Source of the DNA: Ignavibacteriales bacterium
Lineage (GTDB): Bacteria > Bacteroidota > Ignavibacteria > Ignavibacteriales > Melioribacteraceae
NCBI GenBank assembly: GCA_021740915.1
Contig: JAIOYW010000011.1
Span: 1-64,000, forward strand
Direction: 5' to 3'
Length of the DNA stretch: 64,000 nucleotides
Positions 2,886-52,362 of the stretch are shown here, piece after piece. The notes under the pieces are model-generated. The model ran no database searches. It was not told where the DNA came from and saw only the letters and a list, made by a program, of their open reading frames with translations. Made by a program: the position numbers and the translations under genes. Numbering within the stretch: the stretch's first letter is position 1; each line of letters starts with the position of its first letter.

Positions 2886-4145
2886 TTACAGATCTCCTCT
2901 ACCGTAGTAAGGAGCAGATTGTTTACCGGTATAAACCTTTATGATCTCTCTGTATTCATCATCAGCATCCGAGGACTTTTTAACGAAGTACATCTCATCG
3001 CTGATTCCCCAGGTAATATTCTGTGCTTCCGGCGTGAAAACTACACCAGCAGTCAGATCAGGATACAAAGGACTGAAACTTTTATCAACTGCAACCATAT
3101 ATACAGGATATTCACCATCGTTGGCAATAAAAAGAGTGCCGTCATCGGCAAAGTTAATTCCCTTTATTTCAGGCGGAAATGTCGTAAATTGGGCATCAAA
3201 ATCAAAATAAATTTCTTCGGCTCCAAGCTGATCAGCAGATATTATAGGAAAACGGAAAATTTTTCCTGAACCGTCTCTCTTAGCCGCAACATACAAATAA
3301 TCGTCATAAACTCTAATTGCAGAAACTTCCCCGGTAAAAGGAAAACCTTTGACTGTTTTATCGGGTTTCATGCTGTAGAGGGAATTCATAGCTGTACCGC
3401 TTGTCCAGATATTCAGATTTTTATCGAAATCCAAATCAGTAAGAATTCCAGCCGGTACTGTGGCAAAAGTTTTGGATGCCTGTCCGGCTTCAATCTGGAA
3501 TAAAGCGCGCACACCGCGTGTACCGTAAAGTATTCCGGATGGACCCATTTTTAACGAGGCAAACAGACCTGGCTGGTTTGGTGCAAAATCTGTAACAACT
3601 TTACCAGCGTCAATTTTTTTGATGCCGAGGTTTTTATCGCTTTTCTTCTCAGTCATCTGTGCATAAATATTTCCCAGTTGATCTGTACAAATTCCCCACC
3701 ACCGGTTATTTGTTTTTCTGTCTGTGGCAATTTCTTCGACAGCAGCTTTAAGCCTGTATTTAACAGGAAGACTGTAGCCGGGCGATTTAAGAGTTGTGAC
3801 TTTCAGAGTGTCTTCGACAAATCCTGAATCGGCGGGAATTGTTACTACCGGAGCTTTTATAACTAATTGAGTAGTGGAAGCTGAAAGTATTGTTGCTCTG
3901 GCAGCGCCAAAATAGACGAAATTCTCTGCAGAATTTGCAGAAAAATTAGTCCCGCTGATTGTGATATCCGTCACGCCGGAATACGCCTCCAAACTTGGAG
4001 CAACACCTGTGATCGTTGGAACAGGAACATTGCCTCCAATAAGACTATCGAGACTTGGTTCTCCTTCCTCGGCGCACCCCGCGAATATTAGTATTGCGGT
4101 GAAGGCAAGCGCTGTAAAAACCTTAACTGTAGTTTTATTTTTCAT
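2886..4145 (-). CDS. IPT/TIG-domain surface or periplasmic lipoprotein with propeller-like C-terminus
   Basis: 419 residues from the ATG at 4145; a TTG at 4151 would add only two residues. The N-terminus has a lysine-rich start, a hydrophobic core and a lipobox ending FAGC, so it is a lipoprotein with the lipidated Cys near residue 23. Residues about 45–135 resemble an IPT/TIG immunoglobulin-like domain (PTITGVAPSLEAYSG…DITISGTNFS). The rest has short repeats such as DQLGNIYAQ, DKNLNIWTSG and DDGTLFIANDGE, typical of NHL/SMP-30-like propellers. It sits between the PorV-like gene and the terminal T9SS cargo gene in one operon. I cannot assign a ligand. Conservation of lipoprotein + TonB receptor + PorV genes suggests a shared surface function. 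Confidence 0.78.
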   Translation of the reverse strand: MKNKTTVKVFTALAFTAILIFAGCAEEGEPSLDSLIGGNVPVPTITGVAPSLEAYSGVTDITISGTNFSANSAENFVYFGAARATILSASTTQLVIKAPVVTIPADSGFVEDTLKVTTLKSPGYSLPVKYRLKAAVEEIATDRKTNNRWWGICTDQLGNIYAQMTEKKSDKNLGIKKIDAGKVVTDFAPNQPGLFASLKMGPSGILYGTRGVRALFQIEAGQASKTFATVPAGILTDLDFDKNLNIWTSGTAMNSLYSMKPDKTVKGFPFTGEVSAIRVYDDYLYVAAKRDGSGKIFRFPIISADQLGAEEIYFDFDAQFTTFPPEIKGINFADDGTLFIANDGEYPVYMVAVDKSFSPLYPDLTAGVVFTPEAQNITWGISDEMYFVKKSSDADDEYREIIKVYTGKQSAPYYGRGDL

Positions 4146-4204
4146 AATCAAACCGCTAAAATATAAAATATTTTATTTAAATGTTTTTAGCAAAAATTTG
4201 TGAC

Positions 4205-5236
4205 CTAATAACCTATATTAACTGAAAACCTGTGAACGTTATCAAAAAGCCCGAAAGGCGCATATGCGTAATCAACTCCCATCCTTACACCAGCGATTTC
4301 CTGGTTAATTCCAACGCCTGCAGAGGTGCCTCTTTCATCCTGCGGAAATGAATAACCAAACCTCAGAGAAAACATATCCATAAAAGTATATTCACCTCCA
4401 AGGAAAACCTGTTCAGCAAAATCTCTGGGGTGCGCAGCATCTACGCTTATAAGCAATGAGTGCATCCCGCGGTCTATTTGTTCGAAGAAATCAAACGCAT
4501 TGACAGAAGCGCCTAATCTGAAAGTAAGCGGAAGTTCGAAATTTTCTTCAATATAACCAACTTCTCTCGAAAAATTCCTGATACTCATACCAATGTTAAA
4601 ACTCTTGTATCCGGTCTTATAAATAATACCAAAATCAAAAGCCATAACATCTGCATTATATTTTCCTTCATTAATATCACCGGAATTAGTAAAACCGATA
4701 ATCGCTGTGCCGAGTGACTGGCTGACATACTTTATATTTCCGCCAATTGCAAATTTTTCAGAAAGCGAACGGGCATAACCAATACCAAATGCAAAAGCTT
4801 TCGGGGAAAATGTCCCGACATCGAGATAGCCCTGCTCATTGTTTGCCTTGATTGTTCCGCGGAAATCACCATAATCAACCGCAATAACAGAAATCCCTAT
4901 TACTCCGTAGTAGTCATCCTGGAACGGCTGAAAAGCCGCACCTGCATGTAGATAATTGATATCTGCGATCCATGATGTATGACCAAAAGTGAAATCTGCC
5001 ATACGATCCAGATTTGCCATTCCGGCGGGATTATAAAACATGGCGCTTGCTGATCCATGAATTGAAGTCAGAGCTTCGCCCATTGCACTTGCCCGTGCAT
5101 CGGTTGACACGCTGAGGAATTTCATACCGGTCTGAGCAAGTTTGACCTGTTGTCCGTATGCATTATTCAGGGAGAAAAGAAATAACCCTGAGATAAAGAA
5201 AATTAAAAACTTATTTTTTTTCATTTTTTTACCCAT
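4205..5236 (-). CDS. PorV/PorQ-family outer membrane protein
   Basis: 343 residues: signal peptide (KFLIFFISGLFLFSLNNAYGQ), then the hallmark N-terminal block of the PorV/UPF0164 family, with KFLSVSTDARASAMGEA followed by SAMFYNPAGMA. The rest is an alternating aromatic β-barrel pattern ending in a terminal aromatic strand (FSVNIGY). In Porphyromonas and Flavobacterium, PorV is the outer-membrane partner that shuttles T9SS cargo from the translocon. Paralogues placed next to cargo genes, as here, are common in Ignavibacteria, and cargo-specific use is an inference. An in-frame ATG at 5224 preceded by GGATGGGT could be the true start and would remove four residues. It lies 10 bases after the 688-residue gene. 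Confidence 0.88.
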   Translation of the reverse strand: MGKKMKKNKFLIFFISGLFLFSLNNAYGQQVKLAQTGMKFLSVSTDARASAMGEALTSIHGSASAMFYNPAGMANLDRMADFTFGHTSWIADINYLHAGAAFQPFQDDYYGVIGISVIAVDYGDFRGTIKANNEQGYLDVGTFSPKAFAFGIGYARSLSEKFAIGGNIKYVSQSLGTAIIGFTNSGDINEGKYNADVMAFDFGIIYKTGYKSFNIGMSIRNFSREVGYIEENFELPLTFRLGASVNAFDFFEQIDRGMHSLLISVDAAHPRDFAEQVFLGGEYTFMDMFSLRFGYSFPQDERGTSAGVGINQEIAGVRMGVDYAYAPFGLFDNVHRFSVNIGY

Positions 5237-5246
5237 CCGATATTTA

Positions 5247-7313
5247 TTATCTGATCACGGCAAATTTTTCAATTGCCCTTTCACCGGTAGTCTTATCTGT
5301 AATCACAGCAATATATATCCCGGATACAACAACCTGATTCGAAGAAGTGACACAATTCCAGTAAGCATCGCCGCTTCCGTCGCTGTGTTCAAGTTCATAA
5401 ATCAATTCTCCGACCTCAGTATAAATCTGTATGGTACAAACACCCGGAATATTAAAAAATGCAAGTTTATCCGGTTCATCAGGGAATCTCAGACGGTCTG
5501 AATCGGATCCAAGTACAAACGGATTTGGCACAATCCTAATCTGACTAAGCGAATTTCCTGCAGGTCTTTTAAGATTTGCCGGATCATACGTCTGAGTTGC
5601 ATACCTGCTGCTTCTCAGTTTACCCAGGGGAGTATTACCAACACCGTTGTTTTCGGTTGCATCACCCACAGAAACAATGTAATAATAATAATTTACTCCT
5701 CTGAGAAGATCTTTATCGTCATAGCTTGTTTCGTCGGCACCTGCCTGATAAATCAGGTAATATGTGCTGTCATACTGCCCGGTTGCACGGTAAATTTCGA
5801 AACCGGTAACGGTGGGACCTGCTTCCGGATAAAGCTCCCAGCTCAGAGAAATTCTGTCTCCGCCGGAATTAACATTGAAAAATTTCGGCGGATAAGGAGC
5901 TTTTGGAATTGAATATCCGCTCTTGTAATTATTCACTGCACGGCGGAATGATTTAAACAAAGAATCTTTGCCAGTCAGAACATATTGATTTTTCTGCAGG
6001 GCATTGATTGATCCTCTTTTATACTGCTTTCCATAAAGAATATTCTTTTCCCAGCTCAAACCGCTTACCGCTTCAGCCCAGACAACTGTAACACTCTGTC
6101 CAAAATCCAGATCGTAAGGACCATAACCGTTAGCAGCGGAAAAACCTCCGGAAGTGCCGAGAGACGGGTCAGCGGTCGGCGCTGCAAAATTACCTGATGG
6201 TTCAACTTTATCTGCATGACGGGGATTTGCGTGACCTTTGCTCATCCAGTCATACTCCGCCTGCATTTTAGTCTCGTTGTATGAATCATTATTTGAAGTA
6301 TTGGGATGATCAGAATCTTCAAAAGATGTAGTCATTGGCTGAAGAACATCGTCCGTCATATCAAGCGGCGAGGTGTCAGCATGAAGAGTAACAACACCGG
6401 CAAACTGTGAAGCGCCCAACCTGCCGACGGTATCGCCTGCATTCGTATAAACGGTTCCGTCAGGATTCCAGATCGGACCTCCGATATTATCATAAGCTAC
6501 GAAAGGAGGATATTTACCATGCCATACATACTGTGCACGGAAGTCGGCATCTGCATCATTTTTAACGCCGTCGCCTCTTGTATCCACCATAGTGTTTATA
6601 CCCCAGCCGGTAGCATTGCCAATTACATATCTTGAATTTGCACTAACAGCAAGGCGGTAATGATAATAGATATATACTCCCTTGAGATTCTGATTAGGAA
6701 GTTCTATATCTGCATCCCCGTCAGTATTACCTGTGTTTGTGACAGTCACTTCATGAATAATGTAATTATCGTGAAAAGGCTGACTGAATGCAATTATTTT
6801 CCTCTCATAAGTGAGCCCGAGGATAGTATTGACCTTATTATATATAACCCTGTCATAAGGGAGATTAATATCAGGCTCCTCAGTATTATCAACGCTTAAC
6901 TGGTATGAGGCAACACCATCCACCGAAACAGTCGGGGTTTCAAGTTTGCTCTGCATAGTGAACTCAACCGGAAAGAACTCATTTGCACCCGATACTCTGG
7001 GACCAACATGGGCAACTCTTCTTGACCAAAGTTTACCTGTCTCATCAGTGAATTCCTTTACACCCAGCCATAATCCTTTAGCCGCCTGAATATCCTGATT
7101 CCTGTAAATAGCTGGCCAGCGAAGTCCGTACTGTTGTCTTTTAACAAGTCCTTCCTCAATCTCACAGCCAATTTCGGAGTACCAGTTGTGTAATGATCCT
7201 ACAGCCATCCATTTCGTCTGATACTGTGCTTTTACTGAAACTGATAAAAGCAGAAATAGAAGGAATGCGGAGAGGATCTTAACAAATTGTCCCGAATTAA
7301 TATTGTATTTCAT
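5247..7313 (-). CDS. Large exported protein with fibronectin type III domain and variant T9SS-like C-terminus
   Basis: 688 residues with a clear signal peptide (FVKILSAFLLFLLLSVSVKAQ). Most of the protein (about 30–460) matches no family I recognise. About residues 480–575 look like fibronectin type III: PYPPKFFNVNSGGDRISLSW, later GFEIYRA and YYYIVSVGD. The C-terminal roughly 90 residues have RIVPNPFV and end GIYIAVITDKTTGERAIEKFAVIR-like, a FlgD-Ig/T9SS sorting-like fold lacking the usual NYPNPFNP form. GAGG seven bases before the ATG supports the start. It has the same operon position as the 1205-residue protein at 14984–18601, between a TonB receptor and a PorV-like gene, and the two share this C-terminal design. 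Confidence 0.75.
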   Translation of the reverse strand: MKYNINSGQFVKILSAFLLFLLLSVSVKAQYQTKWMAVGSLHNWYSEIGCEIEEGLVKRQQYGLRWPAIYRNQDIQAAKGLWLGVKEFTDETGKLWSRRVAHVGPRVSGANEFFPVEFTMQSKLETPTVSVDGVASYQLSVDNTEEPDINLPYDRVIYNKVNTILGLTYERKIIAFSQPFHDNYIIHEVTVTNTGNTDGDADIELPNQNLKGVYIYYHYRLAVSANSRYVIGNATGWGINTMVDTRGDGVKNDADADFRAQYVWHGKYPPFVAYDNIGGPIWNPDGTVYTNAGDTVGRLGASQFAGVVTLHADTSPLDMTDDVLQPMTTSFEDSDHPNTSNNDSYNETKMQAEYDWMSKGHANPRHADKVEPSGNFAAPTADPSLGTSGGFSAANGYGPYDLDFGQSVTVVWAEAVSGLSWEKNILYGKQYKRGSINALQKNQYVLTGKDSLFKSFRRAVNNYKSGYSIPKAPYPPKFFNVNSGGDRISLSWELYPEAGPTVTGFEIYRATGQYDSTYYLIYQAGADETSYDDKDLLRGVNYYYYIVSVGDATENNGVGNTPLGKLRSSRYATQTYDPANLKRPAGNSLSQIRIVPNPFVLGSDSDRLRFPDEPDKLAFFNIPGVCTIQIYTEVGELIYELEHSDGSGDAYWNCVTSSNQVVVSGIYIAVITDKTTGERAIEKFAVIR

Positions 7314-7346
7314 TTTTTCCTCAATAATTCTTTTTTACCTTACGGT

Positions 7347-10300
7347 TTATCTTAATTCAAATGATAATTTTAATCCCCAGTTAATATCTCTCAGCCCAAG
7401 GAATGTGAAATAATTCTGATTCGGCATATCGATATATTGTTTGTTGTCAAGGATATCATCGATTCTGCCCTGATCAACCTGAACCCATGCATCGTTCTTA
7501 TACTGCATATATTTTCCTGACTGAGAAATATAATAAATAGCGGCCGTGGATGGAGTTGTAATTTCCGTAGTTGTCGGAGATGAAAGCATTGGAGTGAATT
7601 CACCTCTTATGCGGTAATCACCTGGTCTGTCCTCACCGGGAATATTTCCGTATTTAAGCGGATCGCCTATTTCAGCAGGAAGATGCAGCGACTTCATATA
7701 TGCTTCATAGTCCTTGCCGTCAATAAATCCGTATTGGGTCATATACTTATAGTTCAGGAGATTGCTGACGTCCATAAAGAACTCAAGATTAAGTGAACCA
7801 AATTTAAATGCTTTACTCAATCTCAGATCAACGTTAAAATAGTCATTCCACTGAACGTTATTAATAATACCCGGGATTGAACCACCGCCGGTCCATGTGA
7901 GATAATAACCGCTGGTCCATTCTCCAAGTAATGTGAGGCGCCAGTCGGCGAGAGGATAAAGACCTTCATAAACCGGACCGTAATCTGATGGTGTGAAGAA
8001 ATTCACATTCGCTCTTGCAAAAGGACGCGGAACAGGTTTTTCCTGATACTGGTCGCGGGCTTCTCTTTCATATTGTCTCTGCGCTGCCAGATTCTCATAA
8101 TACTGTGCAAATCCGAATCTGCCTGATGTAGTTACCTGGTAAGTATAATTTACAAATCCCTGAACCCAGTTTCCTCTGTTTTTGGTAAGAGTGAACTCAA
8201 ATCCCCTGATATCGGCGTAGGAATTCGGCTGTGAAACCGAATAGTTTACAGAATTGTCTCTGTTTGTAAAAGTTACCAGAGCCGGCTGCTGCGATACATC
8301 TTTGTAATAACCTGCAAGTCTTAAAAGGAATTGGTCAAATAAATTATGTTCGTAGCCAAGTTCATACTGTATTGTTTTTTCAAGCGGGTTATTTGGATTT
8401 GCCAGACGTGTAACAGCATTATTATCACTGTATCTTCTTAGTAGATAAAGGTTTTCCGGTGTAGGAATAGAACGCTGATGCCCGTAATTAAAGAATAATT
8501 TACTGTCAACCGTGATCGGGAATGCAATACCGATTCGGGGGCTGACTGTCAATTGTTTTGCAGTCGCTTCTTTCGGCAATAGTGTGTCAATACCAAGTGA
8601 ATTTCTTGAGGAGAAGGCATTGTTAAATGGATCATAAACGTACCATTCACCGCTTGGATCAAGATAATCTATCCTGATGCCGACATTGGCGATCATACCT
8701 TCAAATTCGAGTTTATCCTGAAAATAGAGTCCGCCCCTGATCGGAGTAGTTTCCCATTTTGACTGCGATCTGCCTGACTGCAGGAATTTATCGACTGAAG
8801 CATAATTTGTTCTGTTATCTGTATAATTTATTTCAAAGCCGGCTTTAACCTGATTGTATTTATTCAACTGGCTTATAATATCAAATTTTGCTGTATAGAC
8901 TGCAATAAAACTGGAATCACGCGAATTGCTCATTCCAACTCCCATCCTCATTCCGGAGCCAATTCCTGTTGAAGGAGCTTCCTGCCAGCCGAATGGTGAT
9001 TCATCAACCCAGTAATTATTACCAAACCGTGCAATATAGGTTGTATCATTCCTGGGTCTGCCCGGGTTTGTATTATAATCTGAAGCGAACCGGGAGATAA
9101 TGGCTTCATAAAAAGTAGTCGGATTAAGTACATGAGTAAATTTTAAACCGGTGCTCATTCTTAATACGTTTGTCGGCGCCCAGTAATCTGTTCCAAAAAT
9201 ACGAGCATCAATATAACTAACGCTCGTCAGTGAAGAAGCAATACTGGAGTTGGAGCGGAATATACCCGGCAAGCCTGAATTATTGTTGTTGGTTCCCGAC
9301 TGTTCACCATAAAGACCGTCGAACATTAACTTTTTGCCTTCGCCGAGGTCAGCAGTCAATTTTAAAGTCGCCGCATAATCCTGATAACTGTCAGTTGAGA
9401 GCGGGATAAGATACATTTCCCTTTCGCGTCTGTATGATGCAAAGAACCTTAGATTACCGAGGTCTTTTCCGATTACCGGAACCGGACCGCCGAAACTCAT
9501 GTCAACTTCGTAATCAGGTTTTTTAATATCAAGATTCCTGCGATGCTGCCAAAGAAAAAGTTCCTGGGCGGCACGCGGTGAAAGATCATTATTCGGATCA
9601 TCATCGTTTAATAATTTCTCTGAAACCGATAACCATCCCTCAAACTCCTGATACTGTTTTTGGGTGAATTCATTCCACGACCCGTTTTTTGTGCCGGTCC
9701 ATGCGACTGCGTCGTCAATATAAGGGCGGATCCAATAACTATCCGGTGAATGAACGCTTCCGCCAAAGTTTTTGGGGCCGGCAGGGCGATATCTTGTAAC
9801 AAGACTGAATGTATATTTATCTTTACTTCCTTCTTTTGTTACAACATTAACGATACCCGAACGAATATTTCCAAATTCTGCGTTAAAACCGCCTGTCTGA
9901 ACCTGAATATCCTCTACTGCAGTTAGACTCAAAGTAGTATAAGGTGTATTGTCACGCTCATCTCTCAATGTAAGACCATTTACAATATACGCAGTCTGAT
10001 TAGCAGCGCCGCCGCGGATAATAGGACCGTCAGCGCCAAACTGAATACCAGCCTGAAGCGATATAGCACGGTTCGCATCGGTTGTAGGCAATACTTCAAT
10101 TTCGGCAGCGCTGATATTCGCGCGGCTCGAAGATACGTCCTGCTGAACTACCGGTGCAGATGCAACGATAATAACTTCGCCCATCTGAATGTTTTCTTCA
10201 TCTAACTGAACGTCAACAATTGTTGTCTGATCAATATTAATTCGGATACCGACAATTTTTGAAGACTGGTAGCCGATATAGGTAGCTTTCATATTATAGC

Positions 10301-10511
10301 TGCCTGGAGGAACGTTCAGAATAACGTAATATCCCTCGAGATTCGTTGCGGCGCCAAAACTGGTGCCTTCGAGTAATACGTTAACTCCGATAAGAGGTTC
10401 TCCCGTTTTCTTATCGGTAATTGTTCCGGCAATTTTTCCTGTAGTCGAAGCTTTTGCAGGAGCGAGGAAAACAAATAAAATCATTATTGCAAGGAATAAA
10501 AACTTCCTCAT
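7347..10511 (-). CDS. TonB-dependent receptor with carboxypeptidase-regulatory-like domain
   Basis: 1054 residues, outer membrane, probably importing or exposing an unidentified substrate with TonB energy. After a signal peptide (FLFLAIMILFVFLAPAKAS), residues about 24–110 form a CarboxypepD_reg-like β-sandwich (GKIAGTITDKKTGEPLIGVNV, NLEGYYVILNVPPGSY). The plug domain follows (about 115–225, ANRAISLQAG, PIIRGGAANQTAYIVNGL, GGFNAEFGNIRSGIVNVVTK) and then the β-barrel, ending in a terminal aromatic/charged strand (LKLSFELR). AGGAG seven bases upstream fixes the start. No SusD-like partner is adjacent. The neighbours are a lipoprotein upstream and exported/PorV-like genes downstream. This is the same arrangement as the paralogous receptor at 18616–21447. 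Confidence 0.92.
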   Translation of the reverse strand: MRKFLFLAIMILFVFLAPAKASTTGKIAGTITDKKTGEPLIGVNVLLEGTSFGAATNLEGYYVILNVPPGSYNMKATYIGYQSSKIVGIRINIDQTTIVDVQLDEENIQMGEVIIVASAPVVQQDVSSSRANISAAEIEVLPTTDANRAISLQAGIQFGADGPIIRGGAANQTAYIVNGLTLRDERDNTPYTTLSLTAVEDIQVQTGGFNAEFGNIRSGIVNVVTKEGSKDKYTFSLVTRYRPAGPKNFGGSVHSPDSYWIRPYIDDAVAWTGTKNGSWNEFTQKQYQEFEGWLSVSEKLLNDDDPNNDLSPRAAQELFLWQHRRNLDIKKPDYEVDMSFGGPVPVIGKDLGNLRFFASYRREREMYLIPLSTDSYQDYAATLKLTADLGEGKKLMFDGLYGEQSGTNNNNSGLPGIFRSNSSIASSLTSVSYIDARIFGTDYWAPTNVLRMSTGLKFTHVLNPTTFYEAIISRFASDYNTNPGRPRNDTTYIARFGNNYWVDESPFGWQEAPSTGIGSGMRMGVGMSNSRDSSFIAVYTAKFDIISQLNKYNQVKAGFEINYTDNRTNYASVDKFLQSGRSQSKWETTPIRGGLYFQDKLEFEGMIANVGIRIDYLDPSGEWYVYDPFNNAFSSRNSLGIDTLLPKEATAKQLTVSPRIGIAFPITVDSKLFFNYGHQRSIPTPENLYLLRRYSDNNAVTRLANPNNPLEKTIQYELGYEHNLFDQFLLRLAGYYKDVSQQPALVTFTNRDNSVNYSVSQPNSYADIRGFEFTLTKNRGNWVQGFVNYTYQVTTSGRFGFAQYYENLAAQRQYEREARDQYQEKPVPRPFARANVNFFTPSDYGPVYEGLYPLADWRLTLLGEWTSGYYLTWTGGGSIPGIINNVQWNDYFNVDLRLSKAFKFGSLNLEFFMDVSNLLNYKYMTQYGFIDGKDYEAYMKSLHLPAEIGDPLKYGNIPGEDRPGDYRIRGEFTPMLSSPTTTEITTPSTAAIYYISQSGKYMQYKNDAWVQVDQGRIDDILDNKQYIDMPNQNYFTFLGLRDINWGLKLSFELR

Positions 10512-10557
10512 ATCAAATCTCCTAGATTAAACTTTCGTAAGTTCATTAGCCCTGGCA

Positions 10558-11463
10558 TCAGATATCCAGTTTTATTTTTGCAGTCCCCGAAGGAATCACA
10601 GTATTCTTTGTCATATTATAAGAGGGTCCTGAAACCGCATCTGAAGGAATTGTGGCTTCAAAAACTCTGACAAAGAACGGTTCAACTTCGGTTTTGACCG
10701 AAGGCTGCAAGGTGATATAAACTTTCAGTCCTTTTAAGTCGAGCGGGAAAGAAACCCCGGAGGGTGCGTTAAGCAGAAAATCTTCTCCGGGAGCAGAATA
10801 TCCTGGGGCTTGGGTGTCGGAATAATCTGCGCGGTCATCGGCAGATGTAATTGAAGTGAAAGCACCCACCGGCAGTTTTTCTGCGCCGGTCTCAACCCAA
10901 GCAAAATATTTCCAGCCGGTTGAAAGTGTCGGCAGTTTAAGTCCGGCAATTGGTCCGCCGGTTCTGCCAAGCGAATCAACAAACCATATACCTGAAGTCT
11001 CGTTTACCCCTGCACCATCGGTTGGAGTGGATAAACTGTATTTTGCCGTCGATTCAGTGAAATCACCTGCCGCCGAATTCAGCGTGACAGGAGCATCGTT
11101 ACCCTGGAATGTTCCTGCAAGTATAGATGGCCCCTTTGGTTTAACTGAATCCATAAGAGCCGTTTTTTCAAGGGAAACGACAACCTTTTGAGCTGTATGG
11201 AGGTTGGTGAATGATGCATCGAGGCTGATATCAAGAGAACCGTTGGCCGATGGCTGCAATTGTGAAACAAATCTGTACACGGTGCGGTCTATATCAACGT
11301 AGCTAAGCCATAACACATATTCCAGAGAATCGGCGGCAGGAATCAGGTTCCTTACACTGATTGTAATCTGGGAGATATTGGCTTCATCTTTGACTTCAAC
11401 CATATCGCAGCCAGCGATCAACAGTATCGAAAAAATTGTGAGCAGCTTGTAAATTTTTTTCAT
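10558..11463 (-). CDS. Lipoprotein of unknown function at the head of the TonB–PorV operon
   Basis: 301 residues. The start MKKIYKLLTIFSILLIAGCDM has a typical lipobox with the lipidated Cys at about residue 19. The remainder is β-rich with repeated short sandwich-like segments (SLEYVLWLSYVDID, KVVVSLEKTALMD, GWKYFAWVETGAEKLPVGAF, KVYITLQPSVKTEVEPFFVRVFEATIP). The pattern resembles anti-sigma-like or adhesin-like lipoproteins, but I do not recognise a family. It begins the operon 46 bases upstream of the TonB receptor gene and could be its surface partner, in the way SusD or other lipoproteins serve other receptors. That is inference from position only. Confidence 0.7.
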   Translation of the reverse strand: MKKIYKLLTIFSILLIAGCDMVEVKDEANISQITISVRNLIPAADSLEYVLWLSYVDIDRTVYRFVSQLQPSANGSLDISLDASFTNLHTAQKVVVSLEKTALMDSVKPKGPSILAGTFQGNDAPVTLNSAAGDFTESTAKYSLSTPTDGAGVNETSGIWFVDSLGRTGGPIAGLKLPTLSTGWKYFAWVETGAEKLPVGAFTSITSADDRADYSDTQAPGYSAPGEDFLLNAPSGVSFPLDLKGLKVYITLQPSVKTEVEPFFVRVFEATIPSDAVSGPSYNMTKNTVIPSGTAKIKLDI

Positions 11464-11583
11464 TTAATTGATCCCCGGATTAAAATTAAGATGTTAATTT
11501 CATCTTTCTGACAAAGATTTTAATATTGCTATTTTATAATACTAAACTATGTCAAATTACGATTTAAATCTAATATGAGCAAT

Positions 11584-11614
11584 AAGATGCTCCTTATTTA
11601 ATAAGGAGCATCTT
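11584..11614 (-). terminator. Hairpin overlapping the stop codon of the GHL10-like gene
   Basis: A perfect 14-base-pair stem (11584–11597 with 11601–11614) has a 3-base loop. The right arm encodes the last sense codons of the upstream gene (KMLLI) and the TAA at 11596–11594 lies in the loop and left arm. On the minus strand it is followed by ATTGCTCATATT, which is only weakly T-rich. It may act as terminator or as a 3' mRNA-stabilising hairpin. Confidence 0.6.
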
Positions 11615-13945: not shown

Positions 13946-13964
13946 TTATTCTTATTTAATTAGT

Positions 13965-14969
13965 TTAGAATTTCACTCCCAATGAAAAGTGCTGGGTATT
14001 ATCAAGTATTCCGAAATCCTGATAAGCATAGTCCACCTGAAGCCCGAATCCCGGCATCAGATCATATGAAATACCGAATCCGAGTGTCAGACCTTCTTCG
14101 CTGTTATCGAGGAACAGAGATTTATAACCAGCCCTCAGACTCACAGTCCTGAATATATTATATTCAGCGCCGATATTCAATGATTCATCGTTATCGTTCG
14201 GGTGAAGTGCATCAACCCCGATTGTGAATAAATGATCTTCATAGTTCAGCAGATCCATTGCAATACCAACACGGAACGTAAGTGGAATCGGATACTTATC
14301 GGTGTTAAGTTTCGCAAGTATCTCATCATTATTACCGCTTTGCTGTGGATCGATATCATGCTGAACGTAAAGGTCTTTTCCGTCAATCTGCATATCGGAG
14401 CCGAAATTGGTAATTGATGATCCGATTCTTAAGCCATAGATATCTGACTGGAATAACACGCCAATATCCAATGCGACAGAACTTGCAGACGAATTCCATA
14501 TTGTCTGCCTGATATATTTCACATTTCCACCGATTGCAAACCGGTCTGTGAGATTATAGGCGTAAGTGAACGCAAGCGACAGATCTGAAGGATTATAGAA
14601 CTCTCCTGTTCCATCCTGAGCCGCGAGAGTTGTAACTTCGATATCGCCATAGTCAAGATAAGTAAGACTCAATCCCATCGTTCCCAGGTCGCCTAACTGG
14701 AAAACAAGCCCTGCCCAGTTATAAGCTATATCAACAAACCATTGCGAGTGAGAAAAATAAACGGAATTTCCATTTAATCTTGCAGCACCTGCAGGGTTCC
14801 AATAAAGACTTGTTGCATCATTAGCAGTGGCAACAAAAGCTCCGCCCATACTTACAGCCCGCGGACCAATACCGATATTCAGAAAAGGCGCCGCCGTTGA
14901 GCCGACTTTACTCTGCCCAAAGACTGCAGCACTGAATATTATCATAAGTAAAATTATTTTCTTTTTCAT
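13965..14969 (-). CDS. PorV/PorQ-family outer membrane protein (second copy)
   Basis: 334 residues from the ATG at 14969, chosen because GGAG lies 11 bases upstream. An ATG at 14984 overlapping the previous stop codon (TAATG) has no ribosome binding site and would break the signal peptide MKKKIILLMIIFSAAVFGQ. The family hallmark block is present: APFLNIGIGPRAVSMGGAF then ATSLYWNPAGAARL. The β-barrel repeats end FSLGVKF. It is a paralogue of the 4205–5236 gene with the same context, after a large exported protein and before a T9SS cargo gene. A role as outer-membrane carrier or attachment factor for T9SS cargo is inferred from PorV. Confidence 0.88.
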   Translation of the reverse strand: MKKKIILLMIIFSAAVFGQSKVGSTAAPFLNIGIGPRAVSMGGAFVATANDATSLYWNPAGAARLNGNSVYFSHSQWFVDIAYNWAGLVFQLGDLGTMGLSLTYLDYGDIEVTTLAAQDGTGEFYNPSDLSLAFTYAYNLTDRFAIGGNVKYIRQTIWNSSASSVALDIGVLFQSDIYGLRIGSSITNFGSDMQIDGKDLYVQHDIDPQQSGNNDEILAKLNTDKYPIPLTFRVGIAMDLLNYEDHLFTIGVDALHPNDNDESLNIGAEYNIFRTVSLRAGYKSLFLDNSEEGLTLGFGISYDLMPGFGLQVDYAYQDFGILDNTQHFSLGVKF

Positions 14970-14983
14970 TTTCCGTGTCTCCA

Positions 14984-17900
14984 TTACTTAATGAGGGAGA
15001 ATTTACCGGACTTTGTTCCAATGCCCGGAGCTTCAACAACATACACATACACGCCGAAGGCAACGTCAAGATTCTCTTCGGTTCTGAGATTCCAGAAGAC
15101 GTCTCCCACATAAAGATCATCATGGTAAAGAGTTTTTATCAACTCACCCCTGACAGTAAATATGGATATTTTCGACCCCGGGGGAATTTTTGTAAACCGT
15201 ATCTCGCGTTCGCCTCTTCCTGACTGCTGGAATGGTCTGATAAGTCCGGCCTCTGTAGCCGAAGCAACAACATAAGGATTAGGAACAACTTTAATGTCCT
15301 TGAGTCCATCGCCTGCTTTAGCTTTATTAATTGAGGCGCCCTGCATCTCAAAAGTAAGGTTATCGTATCTGGAGAAAGGTTTTAAGGTCTTTGCAGTCAA
15401 TGTACCCTGTGTCTCGAGATCTTTGTTCGGGGTCGTGTAGGAAATATTAAAACGCCACGTCCTCTTATACTGACCCTGAACGCCTTCCTTAATCCATATA
15501 CTATGAACAGTTGACACTGTTCCTGTCCGGACATAAACGAAATCGACATATTTATTCGTAGTCAGGTTTTTAACTTTGAATTTTACTTCCTTTGCCGGGA
15601 AAATATTTGTAGGAATCGGGGGATACAGAGTATCGGCAACAGAAGTGTCAACGATAGAATCAAAAAATTCAATTTGATAATCGTTTGGTATTCCAACTCC
15701 GTTTTTAGCCTTCAAAAGCGCCGGAGTATTGCCTGCAAAGAAAACAAGGAAATTCACTGAAGGTTCTTCAAGTGTATTATCGAAAATGGCTGTGTCCAGT
15801 TTTACTGTCCAGTCATTAACAATCTGCATCCTGAAACCGTCATAAATAGGAGTGTTTTCAGTGAAATTCGTAGAATTATTTACGAGCGTATCGTATGGAG
15901 CAGTATAAGTCAGCCCGTTCGATTTAATCTTCAGCCCGTTTACGAGAATCGTATCGGAACCGGCTGGCAATGTCAATGTTTCCAGCGGATTCAGAACATA
16001 AGTTTCGTTTACCAGAGGAACATAGACTGTATCGGGTCTCTGTAAATCGAGCAAAGACCAGCTTGAGGTCAGGTTAGTAAGCGAAGTGTCTGCAAATTCC
16101 ATTCTATAGCTGTAGCCGTCTTCAACTGCGGCGTCATCAATAACCTCAACATAAACACTTCCAGTTGCCCTGAAACCATCGGATTTTGCAAATTCCATAT
16201 TTGAAGCTGGAGTATATCCGGCTGGTCTGTACCCGGGAGTTATTACAATTGAGTTAATATCCGTAATATACTGTCCGTTCCTGTAATCAATAAGCCTGTC
16301 GTTAATTTCCGGGAAAATATCGAGAGAATCATCGCCGGAGTCATAAGCACAAACAGCATAAAAATAGGTCTGTCCTTTAATTGCTGTGGTGTCAACCCAC
16401 TTATTTACAAGGCCGGTATTGCCTCCAAGGTAAAATGTTGTTCCCTTAACGCTTGAGAGCAATTCCTTTGAGGGATAGAAAAATCCGGAGATATCGTCAT
16501 CTTTATCGAACTCTGCTATCGGCTTATCAAATGAGAGATTACCAACTGCATTTGTTATTGAGCGGGCATCATTAAAGCCAAAATCTGAAGCGCGGAAAAT
16601 TTTATAACCCTGGAAATCATTTTTCTTGGTAATAAAATCTCTTGAGTTTTCAGATCTTTCACCATCCCAGTAAAGAACAACTTTACCGTCTTCCTGCGAA
16701 GCTGAGACAGTCGGTTTGGGCGGCGGCTGCGGGAATTTATATCCTGCATTATAAATCTGCTGAACAATAAGTTTATTACCGAGAATGTCATTATAATCTT
16801 CGCCAAAAAGCAAAGAGACAGAGAACCTCTCAATACCGGTGATGCCGCTGGCAGTGTTAGCTGCGAGCAGAGGAAAATATCCGGATGAATAAATAAAATC
16901 ACCATCCTGGGGTCTTGAAGGAACAACATCAAACCTACCGGGTATCATCCTGGCCCAGAGCAGGGAGTCATTAGTCATATCGGGGGATAAGGACTGATTG
17001 AAGAAGTTAAATCCTGTTAAACCGATCTGATCAGATTCATCCGGGTCAGTGCGACCAAAATTTGGTTCGCCCTGTGTCGGGACACCATCGCCTTCGCCGA
17101 AATCCGGTCCGGGATACCCGTCATCGCCGGGTCCTTTACCATCAACACCAAGGTCGTCATAGAGAATACCCCAGTCGCCGTCTTCGTCAATCGCATTATC
17201 TCTTTTCTCATCAATAAGCAGATCGCCGAGACCGAGATTATTAATATAATCTTTATATGCAACACCCTGGGTACCTACTACCTGTCCCTGATCATTAATA
17301 ACCCTGGCTCTCCAGTGCACAACATAATTCTCGTCAATTAAGCCGTCAAGATCGTTATCGTAACCATCAAGAGCGCTTGGAGCGGGGATAAAAATCTGAT
17401 TGGAACTTCCGGACTGAGTATTTATTGTGGCTTCACCTTCAATAAATTTAGTAACCCCTGGAGTAATAGTAAATAATTTACCCATTGATGAAACAGTCTC
17501 AGTAGTATTGCCTAAAACATGAGTGGTTCTTTCATAAGTTGTCGGATCAATAAGCACTATTTTGTCGCCGGCATTATATACAACCGAATCAAAATCGGCA
17601 GAAACAAAACGGGGAGAAGATAGAGTCCGGGAATCATTGTCGTTATCAATTCCATCGTAGGGGTTGCCCGGTGATTCAAGGAATGCGTATCCGACATAAC
17701 CTACTTCCTGTCCTCTGTTTCCGCTATTATCACTATCCCATGAATATGTTATCCAGTCGTTGGCATCAAAGAATCCAAGATCATCTCCGCTATCGCCATC
17801 ACCGCCGGCAAGGGTTCCCACAACAGTTCCGAAGTCTGCTTTCCTGTATGTTGTAGTACCTTCATTTTTAATATCATAAAGCCAGAAAATTACGTCTTCC

Positions 17901-18601
17901 GCAAGAAAACTCGCCCACTGAAAACCTCTCTGACGCAGCTGAAGTCCCATACCATGCCGAAGGGCATTGGTTGAGTCAGGAATAAACATTGTTGCATAGC
18001 CGTTAGCATCGAGTCCGTTGAATTCATCATCAGACTGATCGAAAGCTATGAAAAAACTTTCCTGTGTGGCGTTTTTGATTCCACGGCCAAAATAGCCCCA
18101 CCATTCTGTCTGCCCCTTATCATCAACATAATTTTTCACTTCAGGAAACTCGCCCGGATCAGCCCAGCCGCCAAGCGGATATGTATTAGGCAGATGGCTC
18201 ATAGCCACAGATTGTTCGTTAGGATTTAGAAAACCTGCCATTGCATTCCATCCCCAGAAATATCCTTCTACGGGATGTTTTTCTTCAAGATTCCTGTTAC
18301 GTGGTCCCCTTGAGATTGTAACCGATCTCAATGTATCGTTATTCACGTTTACAAATTCAACTCCGATGAGCGGAATGAGATCTCCTATATAATTCTCACC
18401 TGAACCCCTTGGCCATTCACCGCGGATATCTGTACCAATGTTAAAACCGGCGATTTGTCCGTCATTATAAAATGATATCGCTGCCCTGTTGCCAGTATGA
18501 AAACCGATTCTTCTCAGACTCTTGTCAACACCAATCTGAGCTTCGGCGAATCCGGCAATTAACAGGAACACGATGAAAAACTTAAATATTGTGCTTTTCA
18601 T
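14984..18601 (-). CDS. Very large exported protein with Asp-rich, Ca-binding-like stretches and variant T9SS-like C-terminus
   Basis: 1205 residues with a signal peptide (FKFFIVFLLIAGFAEAQ). The middle (about 290–540) holds several Asp/Gly-rich runs such as GIDNDNDS, DGYDNDLDGLIDE, DEDGDWG and DPDESDQIG, which resemble thrombospondin type 3 or EF-hand-like calcium sites. A fibronectin-like segment follows (about 650–780, PPPKPTVSASQEDGKVVLYW, GYKIFRASDFGF). The end has KVVPNPYVVAS, ISIFTVRGELIKTLYHD and the terminal KSGKFSLIK, a FlgD-like Ig/T9SS-like domain. It overlaps nothing upstream: 15 bases separate it from the TonB receptor gene, and its stop overlaps a non-preferred start of the PorV-like gene. 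It is the counterpart of the 688-residue protein. Function unknown, probably a surface protein. Confidence 0.78.
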   Translation of the reverse strand: MKSTIFKFFIVFLLIAGFAEAQIGVDKSLRRIGFHTGNRAAISFYNDGQIAGFNIGTDIRGEWPRGSGENYIGDLIPLIGVEFVNVNNDTLRSVTISRGPRNRNLEEKHPVEGYFWGWNAMAGFLNPNEQSVAMSHLPNTYPLGGWADPGEFPEVKNYVDDKGQTEWWGYFGRGIKNATQESFFIAFDQSDDEFNGLDANGYATMFIPDSTNALRHGMGLQLRQRGFQWASFLAEDVIFWLYDIKNEGTTTYRKADFGTVVGTLAGGDGDSGDDLGFFDANDWITYSWDSDNSGNRGQEVGYVGYAFLESPGNPYDGIDNDNDSRTLSSPRFVSADFDSVVYNAGDKIVLIDPTTYERTTHVLGNTTETVSSMGKLFTITPGVTKFIEGEATINTQSGSSNQIFIPAPSALDGYDNDLDGLIDENYVVHWRARVINDQGQVVGTQGVAYKDYINNLGLGDLLIDEKRDNAIDEDGDWGILYDDLGVDGKGPGDDGYPGPDFGEGDGVPTQGEPNFGRTDPDESDQIGLTGFNFFNQSLSPDMTNDSLLWARMIPGRFDVVPSRPQDGDFIYSSGYFPLLAANTASGITGIERFSVSLLFGEDYNDILGNKLIVQQIYNAGYKFPQPPPKPTVSASQEDGKVVLYWDGERSENSRDFITKKNDFQGYKIFRASDFGFNDARSITNAVGNLSFDKPIAEFDKDDDISGFFYPSKELLSSVKGTTFYLGGNTGLVNKWVDTTAIKGQTYFYAVCAYDSGDDSLDIFPEINDRLIDYRNGQYITDINSIVITPGYRPAGYTPASNMEFAKSDGFRATGSVYVEVIDDAAVEDGYSYRMEFADTSLTNLTSSWSLLDLQRPDTVYVPLVNETYVLNPLETLTLPAGSDTILVNGLKIKSNGLTYTAPYDTLVNNSTNFTENTPIYDGFRMQIVNDWTVKLDTAIFDNTLEEPSVNFLVFFAGNTPALLKAKNGVGIPNDYQIEFFDSIVDTSVADTLYPPIPTNIFPAKEVKFKVKNLTTNKYVDFVYVRTGTVSTVHSIWIKEGVQGQYKRTWRFNISYTTPNKDLETQGTLTAKTLKPFSRYDNLTFEMQGASINKAKAGDGLKDIKVVPNPYVVASATEAGLIRPFQQSGRGEREIRFTKIPPGSKISIFTVRGELIKTLYHDDLYVGDVFWNLRTEENLDVAFGVYVYVVEAPGIGTKSGKFSLIK

Positions 18602-18615
18602 AATTATTTCCCGAA

Positions 18616-21447
18616 TTAAAAGTTATACGATAAGCCGAGTTCAACTCTCCTCGGTTCCGAGAAAAACCCCGGATTAGTATAGAGATCGTCAAGACTGTTG
18701 TTGAAGAGTCTCGGGTTGATCTGCTCTGCATCATATTTGGCGAAAGTGAAGAAAGGATCGCCAGTTTCAGAGTATATACCCGTTGGATTTTCAAGATCGA
18801 GCAGGTTAAATACTTTCATGAATACTGAAATATTATTTCCGAATATGTCGAAGTCTTTGTAAATCCTGACATCTATATTATATATACTTGGTTTCCCATC
18901 GCTGTTTCTTGGGAAAGCATTCTGTGTAACTCTGGTATTCCTGTTAACAGCCGGAGTATATGGCTGTCCGGAATAGAAATTCGAGATCACAGAAACGCCG
19001 AAATTACCCGGCTGTGTATATGTGAAAGACACATTAAGTGTATGTGACTGGTCCCAATCCAATGGTGCAATAAATGTTTCCGGGATCGCTCCTCCTGCAA
19101 CTGCATTTCTCGCATCGGCAGGATTGGAAGCATTTCCTTTTGTCACAGAATAGGTATAATCCAGATTCATTGCCAGTCCATCGGTAAGCCTCTGGGAAAG
19201 TTTGAAGATAAATCCCTTTGAAAAACCGAAGTCGGAGTTTGCATATCTGCTGTAAGTTCTTTCTCCGCCGAAAACCTGAATTTCGTCAGACTGAGTACCG
19301 GTGAGATTTCTGAAGTCTTCGAAGAAAACTGTCAAATCAACAGCCATATTTTCTCCAATCTGCTGCTGGAGGCCAATTTCGCCCTTAACTGTTTTCTGAG
19401 GTTCGAGATCAGCATTTCCAAAAATTCCCTGATTACCTGATCCTATACCAAGTTCAAAATCAGGATTGGTATATAATAATTCATAGCGCGGTAACTGGAA
19501 AAAATGGCCATAAGAAAAGTGGATGACTCCCCTGTCCGAGATAGGGAACGCTAAGCCAAGTCTGGGACTAAGCTGGGTTTTGATTTTAGCATCTTCAAAC
19601 CAGTATGTCATCCTGTCACTGACGGTTTTCTGAGTTTCACCCAAATCCGGCTCATAAATGCCATTTCCGTTAGTATCAAAATACTGATTTGAAGGCTTGA
19701 TCGGATTGATTATATTAGGATCGCTTGGGTCACTGAGAATCTGACCATCCGGGTTGAAAATATCAAAACGAACGCCTGCGTTGAAAATAAGATTAAATGC
19801 TTCAAATTTTGTCTGCACATAAAAAGCGCCTTCCTGTGGACGTTTTGTGTACATATCGTTGTCCTGTGTGGAGAGCGGCGGGATATCAACACTGAACGGA
19901 TAAACCTCCTGATTGTTCGCATCACGTTTCGGAACGAGATTAATATTGTGATAGAACAGTCTGTGCTGTTTAGCCTCGCCTCCAAACTGGAGATTTATTT
20001 CCTGAGTCAACTGAGTTACCCAGTCAACTTTTCCAATAAAAGTCTCGGAATTCCTTTCAAAACGATTGTAATTTGTTCCGCCTATAGCAAAGCTGTATGG
20101 AGGAGTCTGACCTAACCTGTTATCAACGTATTGAGTTGGTTTGGTAGGATCGCCGGTATAAAGGTCTTCAAAAAGATAGTGGTAATACTCTTTATAAAAA
20201 TAGCTGAAACTCAGAGTGTAGAAACTAGAGTTCGAAACAGCATGATTCATTGTAAGAATATTTGTGTAGGAGTTCGCAAACCTGTCAAGATTATTATCCG
20301 GAGTTAATTTATTGTTGTGATCGTAATCTTTATAATTTCGTCTTTCTCCTATAGAGTTAAAACTAAGATTAAGACCAGGTAACATCCTGAAAGAAAATTT
20401 GCCCTGTCCAAAAATTCTCTGACTCGGATTCATTGCGACAAATTCACCATCACCGCTCCCATTTCCTTCGGGACCTGATATGAGGAATTCCCCGGGGTTA
20501 ATTGGTGATTCACTTGCCCGGTCAGTTGTGAGAAAATCCCGGCGGCCGTAAAAGTATCCGGTGTTATAGAAGTATCTCCAGTTTCCAAAGTAAAATAATT
20601 TATCCTTTAAAATTGGACCGCTTAAACTTGCTTCAACATTTCTTATCGCAACCGGATTTATAGAGTTTATGTTCCAAAATATATCTGAATTGCTAGATAC
20701 ATAATCACCGATGTAAGCACTAATACTCCCGGCAAAATTATTACTTCCATCTTTAGTTACAAGGTTAACAATACCTGACATCGCCTGTCCGTATTCAGCA
20801 TTGAATGCACCTGAAATAACCTGCAATTCTTTGACGGCTGAAGTATTAATGTCAACAACCGATCCGCCATCATAAGCATCGGTTACCGGGACGCCGTCAA
20901 TCTGGTATCCGATCTGACCCGAACGTCCTCCGCGCACGTGAATTCCGCCGCCGGAACCAACAACAATACCCGCCTGAAGCGCAAGCACATCGCCAATCTC
21001 AGTAACCGGTAATTCTTTGATAAGTTCATCGCCGACAATCGCAGTACTGGCTGTCTGGTCTTTGGTCACCATTGGTTTGGTAGCTACGACAACTATTTCC
21101 TCTTTCAACTGGATGCTCGTATCTGAAAGTTGAAAATCGATGCTTGTTGTCAGATCGATTGATACTTTTGCATTTTTGACTGTCGAGGAATTGTATCCGA
21201 TAGCCGAAGCTTTCACGCTATACGTCCCCGGTGGAATGTTAATTATGGAAAAATAGCCGTCAATATCGGAAGCTGCTCCGAGTGACGTACCTTCAATAAT
21301 GATGTTAACGAATGGTAAAGCTTCACCGGTAGTTGCATCGGTAACTCTTCCGGCAATTTTACCAGTAGTACCAAGTTTACCATAAACAGACCCTGAAGCC
21401 ATTATTAAAATTAGCAGCGAAAGCAGGGTTTTGGTAATTATTTTCAT
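18616..21447 (-). CDS. TonB-dependent receptor with carboxypeptidase-regulatory-like domain
   Basis: 943 residues, first gene of its operon. The signal peptide (LSLLILIMASGSVYG) is followed by a CarboxypepD_reg-like domain (about 27–112, GKIAGRVTDATTGEALPFVN, DIDGYFSIINIPPGTYSVKA). Next come the plug (about 120–225, IVGDELIKELPVTEIGDVL, GIHVRGGRSGQIGYQIDGVP, AFNAEYGQAMSGIVNLVTKDG) and a 22-strand-type barrel ending RRVELGLSYNF. GGGGAGG six bases before the ATG is a strong ribosome binding site, unusual in this window. The substrate is unknown. It shares order and architecture with the 1054-residue receptor at 7347–10511. Confidence 0.92.
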   Translation of the reverse strand: MKIITKTLLSLLILIMASGSVYGKLGTTGKIAGRVTDATTGEALPFVNIIIEGTSLGAASDIDGYFSIINIPPGTYSVKASAIGYNSSTVKNAKVSIDLTTSIDFQLSDTSIQLKEEIVVVATKPMVTKDQTASTAIVGDELIKELPVTEIGDVLALQAGIVVGSGGGIHVRGGRSGQIGYQIDGVPVTDAYDGGSVVDINTSAVKELQVISGAFNAEYGQAMSGIVNLVTKDGSNNFAGSISAYIGDYVSSNSDIFWNINSINPVAIRNVEASLSGPILKDKLFYFGNWRYFYNTGYFYGRRDFLTTDRASESPINPGEFLISGPEGNGSGDGEFVAMNPSQRIFGQGKFSFRMLPGLNLSFNSIGERRNYKDYDHNNKLTPDNNLDRFANSYTNILTMNHAVSNSSFYTLSFSYFYKEYYHYLFEDLYTGDPTKPTQYVDNRLGQTPPYSFAIGGTNYNRFERNSETFIGKVDWVTQLTQEINLQFGGEAKQHRLFYHNINLVPKRDANNQEVYPFSVDIPPLSTQDNDMYTKRPQEGAFYVQTKFEAFNLIFNAGVRFDIFNPDGQILSDPSDPNIINPIKPSNQYFDTNGNGIYEPDLGETQKTVSDRMTYWFEDAKIKTQLSPRLGLAFPISDRGVIHFSYGHFFQLPRYELLYTNPDFELGIGSGNQGIFGNADLEPQKTVKGEIGLQQQIGENMAVDLTVFFEDFRNLTGTQSDEIQVFGGERTYSRYANSDFGFSKGFIFKLSQRLTDGLAMNLDYTYSVTKGNASNPADARNAVAGGAIPETFIAPLDWDQSHTLNVSFTYTQPGNFGVSVISNFYSGQPYTPAVNRNTRVTQNAFPRNSDGKPSIYNIDVRIYKDFDIFGNNISVFMKVFNLLDLENPTGIYSETGDPFFTFAKYDAEQINPRLFNNSLDDLYTNPGFFSEPRRVELGLSYNF

Positions 21448-48427: not shown

Positions 48428-48443
48428 CGGATATCAGTTCGCG

Positions 48444-49637: not shown

Positions 49638-49642
49638 ATTTA

Positions 49643-52312: not shown

Positions 52313-52335
52313 AAAAACTTTAAGTAAATTATAAT

Positions 52336-52362
52336 AAAAACAGAGCGGCATCAGCCGCTCTG
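52336..52362 (-). terminator. Terminator between YCF48 T9SS gene and TonB receptor gene
   Basis: A perfect 9-base-pair stem (CAGAGCGGC 52341–52349 with GCCGCTCTG 52354–52362, loop ATCA). On the minus strand five T follow at 52340–52336. It lies 11 bases after the stop codon at 52374. Confidence 0.88.

Follow-up and report, generated by a model that had tools for sequence, protein, structure and literature searches.

Two adjacent loci near one end of a 64,000-nucleotide stretch of an Ignavibacteriales genome (GenBank GCA_021740915.1, contig JAIOYW010000011.1, positions 1 to 64,000; hereafter the window) each encode, in the same order, a TonB receptor, a large exported protein and a PorV-family β-barrel, and this arrangement recurs so regularly in related genomes that the existence of a receptor-BIG-barrel module is near certain. 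Throughout, BIG is our label for the large exported protein between receptor and barrel, and triple stands for the run receptor > BIG > barrel. We propose that each locus encodes one outer-membrane uptake unit. BIG would be exported in two stages, through the inner membrane by means of its signal peptide and then through the outer membrane via the type IX secretion system (T9SS). In the SprA translocon its C-terminal domain (CTD) would be taken over by a PorV-family barrel of its own, the product of the next gene downstream. The CTD would escape cleavage and stay docked there, in the manner of PorU with PorV and PorZ with PorQ, making the barrel a private carrier and anchor rather than a shared shuttle, and BIG, positioned beside the upstream-encoded receptor, would act as a surface substrate-binding subunit, a T9SS-anchored stand-in for SusD. 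The components of this proposal differ in strength: a cognate CTD-barrel pair is likely, a SusD-like role of BIG is plausible, and the explanation as a whole is one toward which we lean slightly.

The window genome (4.35 Mb, 35 contigs) contains ten such triples. A PorV-family search returned 24 match rows, 16 of them over the cut-off, and about 20 kb were fetched around each site outside the window loci; eight of the resulting 19 regions hold a triple, as do both window loci, and a tenfold module would explain this genome's 16 PorV-family matches over the cut-off. Because these regions had been chosen by barrel, a second search was run with the BIG alignment alone. It yielded eight full-length matches, all within triples, and CTD matches above 60 bits in BIG2 (the BIG of the second window locus), triple L029, L022 and a 1391 aa subtilase in L101 (such labels denote fetched regions or contigs, and coordinates after a colon are counted within each). 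Weaker tail matches included PorU, and three BIG relatives were found to carry type A tails (one in L099, two in L100), none of which adjoins a barrel or lies directly downstream of a receptor. Ten of the 12 BIG-type CTD proteins found in this genome thus stand in triples. Canonical T9SS parts are located apart from them: PorU and PorV, which adjoin each other (940 and 265 bits), PorQ (247.8 bits), SprA (172.6 bits) and the true PorZ (C8:69272-71467, 353 bits).

In a phylum sample of 99 genomes and 59 genera, BIG (E 1e-60 or better) occurs in 45 and 33, respectively. Sixty phylum regions were fetched, covering all 44 other BIG genomes and picked by BIG rows among the matches listed, and a tighter alignment pointed to 229 related stretches in named genomes, 80 of which were used. 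Record titles among the related stretches include Melioribacter roseus, Stygiobacter electus, Calditrichota, Candidatus Kryptonium, candidate division KSB1, Candidatus Delongbacteria, Candidatus Marinimicrobia, Balneolaceae and Rhodothermaceae, and a complete triple was confirmed at locus level in Calditrichaeota (L206, L211), Kryptonium (L217), Delongbacteria (L219), KSB1 (L230), Marinimicrobia (L234), Rhodothermaceae (L242) and Stygiobacter electus (L191). After duplicate removal 147 BIG relatives had a profile E below 1e-20, the profile having been built from eight window-genome triples, so that distant and type A relatives are under-sampled; 131 of them have more than 2.5 kb upstream and more than 1.2 kb downstream. 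These divide into 123 with a BIG-type CTD, seven with a type A CTD and one unclassified because of a broken frame (L177). A receptor lies directly upstream of 120 of the 123 BIG-type genes and a barrel directly downstream of 120; both neighbours are present at 118 (10/10 in the window genome, 54/58 in the phylum set, 54/55 in the named set). In L116 the barrel was missed by gene calling and found by tblastn, bringing the genes with a barrel beside BIG to 121 of 123, and among the 16 relatives excluded for short flanks the partner is present wherever the contig reaches, save one. The genes are closely packed: in 121 triples, defined by gaps under about 600 bp, the median receptor-BIG gap is 15 bp (below 50 bp in 117) and the median BIG-barrel gap 7 bp (below 50 bp in 115), with BIG-barrel overlap in 37, a figure overstated because starts were taken from the longest open reading frame (ORF).

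A first-pass annotation of the window had described two parallel loci and surmised that TonB uptake and T9SS display could be coupled in them. Its gene order and BIG lengths (1205 and 688 residues) are borne out by ORFs, Pfam and NCBIfam, and ten triples in one genome, together with an order kept at 118 of 123 flanked genes, take the arrangement beyond chance; the adjacency in relatives, whose absence it had named as grounds for abandoning the idea, is very strong. The annotation made no mention of the polysaccharide-utilisation setting or of the missing SusD. A separate observation concerns one receptor-BIG-barrel set (L144-L150, e.g. L148:452-9790; profile match from about 308 to 1007), which is listed once in each of many genomes. 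In L148 a parvulin-type prolyl isomerase precedes the triple, genes of similar length precede it in other loci of this set, and the set may serve a housekeeping substrate.

The seven BIG relatives with type A CTDs amount to natural tail swaps. None of them has a barrel, none has a receptor directly upstream and one has a receptor within 3 kb, so that barrel presence is sharply divided by CTD type (Fisher p = 1.1e-9, with genes treated as independent although related). As a control, 211 other type A-tailed proteins in the fetched loci were inspected: a barrel lies directly downstream of just one, PorU (whose barrel is PorV), and directly upstream of 63. Ordinary cargo is therefore hardly ever encoded directly before a barrel, unlike BIG-type proteins and PorU. 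These counts bear on the idea that the barrels are extra general PorV shuttles for local type A cargo enzymes, BIG being merely another cargo. Type A cargo does often follow the barrel, both in the control (63/211) and in the named set, where Por_Secre_tail is found in 23 of the 48 first genes downstream (48 of 57 named triples had a next gene qualifying by gap and length, and this sample leans to one orthologous group), and GHL10 cargo follows the barrel in locus 1. Taken with the barrel-less type A relatives (0/7), the solitary PorU case (1/211) and the separate presence of a canonical PorV, the idea is nevertheless improbable.

To judge by its sequence, the BIG CTD is a class of its own, distinct from type A and type B models. 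The BIG1 and BIG2 tails gave no match at E 0.01 to the type A models TIGR04183 and PF18962, the NCBIfam scan of both gave no type B match, and the 17.7 bits of BIG2 against type B (TIGR04131 / CHU_C PF13585) fall below the Pfam cut-off of 27. Of the models built here, the BIG CTD model gives the 137 BIG-type CTDs (a class defined by 60 bits or more on it) 63-150 bits and the 211 type A tails at most 35, and the type A model gives the BIG-type CTDs 0-30. Compared with the PDB, the BIG profile has a single match below E 0.01, to the C-terminus of 5m11 (E = 0.0011), an entry listed as 84 kD antigen which we take to be PorZ; against the PorZ model NF052228, BIG2 reaches 25.1 bits over its last 63 residues only, the cut-off being 260 full-length. 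BIG1 has no Pfam match, BIG2 has a weak one confined to its tail, and all eight BIGs scanned lack a Pfam match at E 0.01. A lipobox-like signal, sought with a crude pattern, appears in one of 121 BIGs, making BIG unlike a SusD-type lipoprotein. A DxDxDGxxDE-like motif, similar to calcium-binding loops, occurs in 98 of the 121.

The two window barrels, PORV1 and PORV2, clearly belong to the PorV/PorQ family (NF033709, 240.7 and 210.1 bits, subfamily cut-off 90) and score far below the equivalog cut-offs for canonical PorV (NF033710, 89.7 and 88.4 bits against 250) and PorQ (NF033711, 113 and 99.6 bits against 220). PORV1 is predicted to share the fold of PorV: its model (mean predicted local distance difference test score 89, predicted template modelling (TM) score 0.82, 14 long strands) most closely matches, among PDB entries, the PorV chain of the substrate-bound translocon (8gl6_F, in a cargo-CTD complex; E = 5.4e-18, TM 0.72), followed by PorV alone (E 3e-13). 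In the translocon structure of PMC10994853 the interfaces of the cargo CTD bury about 850 square angstroms with loops of PorV and 1000 with SprA. Lower matches comprise BamG and the FadL-type channels CymD, FadL and TodX (E 9e-10 or weaker), and PorV itself is described as a FadL homologue (PMC12578637), from which one might imagine the module barrels to be FadL-like channels for hydrophobic compounds beside the receptor. With PorV as the best structural match, the family model passed at 210-241 bits and scanned neighbours suggestive of sugars, peptides or cell-wall pieces rather than hydrophobics, we give this notion hardly any credence. In a tree of 50 of the 121 module barrels and seven others, canonical PorV and PorQ do not fall inside a supported module clade; the non-module barrels form long branches and the base is unresolved, so that these sequences speak neither for nor against one common origin of the module barrels. 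The grouping with the universal PorV that the first-pass annotation had contemplated therefore finds no favour in the model scores, and the tree is silent at its base.

Comparison of gene trees for the 118 of 121 triples that could be split into BIG body and CTD revealed strong agreement between distances for receptor and barrel (r = 0.93) and receptor and BIG body (0.90), followed by BIG body and barrel (0.85) and CTD and barrel (0.78). The partial correlation is likewise highest for receptor and barrel (0.70), and within the ten window-genome paralogues r is 0.75 for receptor and barrel (permutation p = 0.0002), 0.50 for CTD and barrel (p = 0.02) and 0.39 for receptor and CTD (p = 0.06). The barrel tree thus mirrors the receptor tree, as the first-pass annotation had anticipated for receptor-specific export or assembly partners joined in one complex. 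Tree agreement is equally expected from shared inheritance of one operon, and since this linkage explains the co-phylogeny as well as a complex does, a complex is only one of its possible causes; of the annotation's phrase "receptor-specific export", it is the pairing of CTD protein and barrel that the evidence better supports. The same reasoning lends something to plain co-regulation, in which three surface proteins of one utilisation locus have no pairwise contacts: linkage alone yields such trees and the covariation signal is weak (see below). The fixed order, close spacing and recurrence of the same partners at 118 of 123 genes, while the surrounding genes vary, render co-regulation very improbable in our judgement.

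A more serious competitor holds the barrel to be a dedicated shuttle and anchor of BIG, and BIG to be an adhesin or a scaffold for enzymes, placed in the receptor's operon only since the two proteins are used for one nutrient. It would account for the association of CTD type with barrel presence, it expects the co-phylogeny with the receptor from linkage alone, and it has precedent in type B cognate CTD/barrel pairs that anchor adhesins (reported in PMC12618676 and PMC9143113). It fits less well with a receptor found upstream as often as a barrel downstream (120/123 each) across varied titles and neighbour genes, or with type A relatives that lack the directly upstream receptor as well as the barrel, and on balance we consider it unlikely, though less so than the other alternatives.

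The proposal of a SusD-like subunit draws on the distribution of SusD itself. Across the phylum sample 47 of 99 genomes have SusD-like_3; in the window's family 11 of 12 genomes, among them the window genome itself, lack it, and PF07980 likewise has no match in the window genome. SprA is found in 77 of the 99 genomes, including all 45 with BIG, and BIG in none of the 22 without SprA, 21 of which are one family. Within the 77 SprA genomes BIG and SusD counts are inversely related (rho = -0.58, with up to 8 BIG and 29 SusD candidates scored per genome and ancestry uncorrected), and SusD occurs in 20 of 45 genomes with BIG versus 26 of 32 without (Fisher p = 0.002). The 72 genomes with either family give rho = -0.75, but restricting the set in this way biases the value towards the negative. 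At the threshold used, BIG is missing from all 15 genomes that have at least eight SusD, 17 of the 21 with four or more BIG lack SusD, and the other four have both. In the literature, one SusCDE operon is noted for Melioribacter roseus (PMC3534657), and a paddy-soil survey describes susCD as "scarcely detected" in the carbohydrate gene clusters of its Ignavibacteriales and detected in none of its Ca. Kapabacteria (PMC10576277).

Several results weigh against the proposal and should be set beside these. As to the CTD-barrel pair, the partial tree correlation between CTD and barrel, controlling for receptor and BIG body, is -0.04, a value to which we attach no weight, the CTD being short and noisy; covariation between CTD and extracellular barrel loops (assigned from the PORV1 model) accounts for 48% of the top 100 pairs, compared with a mean of 37% over 33 control windows, one of which is as high, and an earlier run with no control windows gave 38% vs 26-27%. 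L154 and L162 have no barrel beside BIG, and the BIG2-like gene of L022, which the flank rule excludes from the count, is the sole contrary case among short-flanked relatives, a receptor-barrel pair lying three genes downstream of it. The L101 subtilase carries a BIG-type CTD with no barrel beside it, and at a profile E of 7e-20 just misses the threshold above which it would have added one more barrel-less case. By score, the CTDs of PorU and PorZ in the window genome are closer to the type A model than to that of the BIG CTD. As to the SusD-like role, neither the eight BIGs scanned at E 0.01 nor BIG2 matches the SusD families PF14322 and PF07980, some SusD is found in 20 of the 45 BIG genomes, the inverse relation over all 99 genomes shrinks to rho = -0.26, and among the neighbours scanned no glycoside-active gene lies near five of the ten window-genome triples. 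Overall, counts over wider genome sets weaken the SusD argument, and the type A control strengthens the CTD-barrel pairing.

Part of the window-genome neighbours of triples were scanned for hints of substrate (Table 1). Five of the ten triples look carbohydrate-linked by these genes, and three are perhaps peptide- or cell-wall-linked. In the 48 named triples described above, the next gene after the barrel encodes GH16 in 21, a solute-binding protein in 11, GH9 in three, GH3 in three and GH130 in one.

Table 1. Genes and domains of the two window loci, BIG relatives with type A CTDs, and neighbours of window-genome triples
Feature	Position	Strand	Details
TonB receptor 1, locus 1	18616-21447	minus	943 aa; CarboxypepD_reg + Plug
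BIG1, locus 1	14984-18601	minus	1205 aa; signal peptide by eye; VPNPYV tail; BIG family
BIG-type CTD of BIG1	14987-15310	minus	VPNPYV ... KFSLIK
PorV-family β-barrel 1 (PORV1), locus 1	13965-14984	minus	339 aa; one base common to BIG1 gene end
GHL10 glycoside-hydrolase-like cargo, locus 1	11594-13945	minus	783 aa; type A T9SS sorting tail
Lipoprotein, first gene of locus 2	10558-11463	minus	301 aa
TonB receptor 2, locus 2	7347-10511	minus	1054 aa; CarboxypepD_reg + Plug
BIG2, locus 2	5247-7313	minus	688 aa exported protein; VPNPFV tail; BIG-type CTD
BIG-type CTD of BIG2	5250-5555	minus	VPNPFV ... KFAVIR; PorZ-model match confined to last 63 residues
PorV-family β-barrel 2 (PORV2), locus 2	4205-5236	minus	343 aa
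TIG-domain lipoprotein, locus 2	2886-4151	minus	421 aa
CBM48/CBM20-like cargo, locus 2	483-2852	minus	789 aa; type A T9SS tail
Type A-CTD BIG relative	L099:7002-9833		no barrel
Type A-CTD BIG relatives	L100:6830-9655 and 10037-12862		no barrel
Type A-CTD BIG relative	L160:6201-7982		no barrel
Type A-CTD BIG relatives	L161:4166-6181 and 6183-8249		no barrel
Type A-CTD BIG relative	L236:6986-10093		no barrel
Neighbours of triple L023			CBM9, GH16-malectin, GH3, sodium symporter, GH16
Neighbours of triple L030			glycoamylase, GH2
Neighbours of triple L029			GH94, GHL10
Neighbours in window loci			locus 1 GHL10; locus 2 CBM48/20
Neighbours of triple L024			amidase
Neighbours of triple L026			racemase, formylglutamate amidohydrolase-like, TRAP genes
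Neighbours of triple L027			enolase-superfamily, RpiR-SIS, DcuC genes
Neighbours of triples L025, L031			nothing telling

By their ORF coordinates all genes of the two window loci share one strand; the receptor-BIG gap is 14 bp in locus 1 and 33 bp in locus 2, and the BIG-barrel gap -1 bp and 10 bp. The interval 4205-21447 indicated by the first-pass annotation takes in the receptor, BIG and barrel genes of both and stops short of the TIG lipoprotein and CBM48/CBM20-like cargo genes that close locus 2. A recent duplication as the origin of the two loci was ruled out, the gene sets being too divergent: the barrels are 29% identical, and the BIGs align by BLAST only near the C-terminus (34%). 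Elsewhere in the window a differently built receptor set is encoded on the minus strand at 46910-52351, consisting of a 902 aa TonB receptor and, after it, DUF4876 and DUF6850 genes, and a second DUF6850-like protein with a barrel match starts at 63156 (L039:8157-9620). Three further arrangements were seen in the window genome. L033:8767-12919 has two PorV-family barrels around a lipoprotein, beside a 528 aa CTD protein and with no TonB receptor seen adjacent, possibly another CTD-barrel pair. L034:2212-10385 encodes a 2390 aa protein and, directly after it, a 93-bit PorV-family protein whose start is lipobox-like. The subtilase at L101:7797-11972, which has FG-GAP repeats as well as its BIG-type CTD, may borrow the barrel of another locus.

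Known part types appear here in a combination and role not found described in the literature searched: titles and abstracts, with few subscription papers, yielded no TonB receptor-BIG-PorV operon, and PorV, TonB-dependent receptor and Ignavibacteri were not found together in one paper. Whether the module represents a second, SusD-independent architecture of TonB uptake in the Fibrobacterota-Chlorobiota-Bacteroidota lineage, with a giant T9SS-exported lid or binding subunit from a new family, a receptor-specific PorV paralogue that retains it permanently by a further kind of CTD, and a three-part complex, is to our mind evenly poised. If true, it would add a cognate CTD/barrel class to the T9SS and bring T9SS export and TonB uptake together in one three-part complex. 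It would offer a concrete, testable answer to a question left open by the paddy-soil survey, namely how Ignavibacteriales import oligosaccharides when susCD is scarce, and BIG could serve as a marker gene for annotating utilisation loci in these lineages. The module would also put to the test the idea, raised in the review PMC10202324, that a cognate barrel keeps its CTD from being cleaved.

Among known systems, SusCD/RagAB shares with the module a TonB receptor and a large surface protein, in several cases amid glycoside hydrolases or sugar importers. It differs in that BIG has no SusD Pfam match and in 120 of 121 cases no lipobox-like signal, that an extra barrel is present, and that the window receptors score 55 and 77 bits against the SusC/RagA model TIGR04056, whose cut-off is 368. 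In BamG:BamH of the Bacteroidota BAM complex, a FadL-family barrel is likewise the pillar for a surface protein (PMC12611786; PMC12578637). BamH, in contrast, is a lipoprotein bound to BAM. That pair is not known to have a T9SS CTD or a TonB receptor operon. A further parallel is offered by SprB:SprF and PG1035:PorP, in which a cognate barrel, often encoded directly downstream, carries and anchors a CTD protein (PMC12618676; PMC9143113). According to PMC12618676, cognate PorP/SprF barrels are required for secretion of the tested type B substrates, with some crosstalk, and help decide the destination of type B CTD proteins. The module departs from these in having a barrel of the PorV/PorQ family, a CTD without a type B match above cut-off, and a TonB receptor upstream. 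The module also resembles PorU and PorZ with their barrels. PorU has the one type A-tailed gene placed directly before a barrel, as BIG is, and PorZ, if our reading of 5m11 is right, is the best PDB match of the BIG profile. PorU is anchored via PorV and PorZ via PorQ (PMC5562754); both retain their CTDs, and cognate PorV-like barrels have been suggested to shield CTDs from cleavage (PMC10202324), so that in each case a PorV/PorQ-family barrel holds a retained-CTD protein. The first-pass annotation's premise of PorV as normally a single shared factor needs correction, PorQ:PorZ, PorV:PorU and PorP/SprF with type B cargo being cognate pairs already known in principle. The module differs from PorZ:PorQ and PorU:PorV in that its window barrels lie below both equivalog cut-offs and BIG is neither PorZ nor PorU, and in that it occurs in ten copies, each with a TonB receptor, in a genome that encodes its own PorU, PorV, PorQ and PorZ elsewhere.

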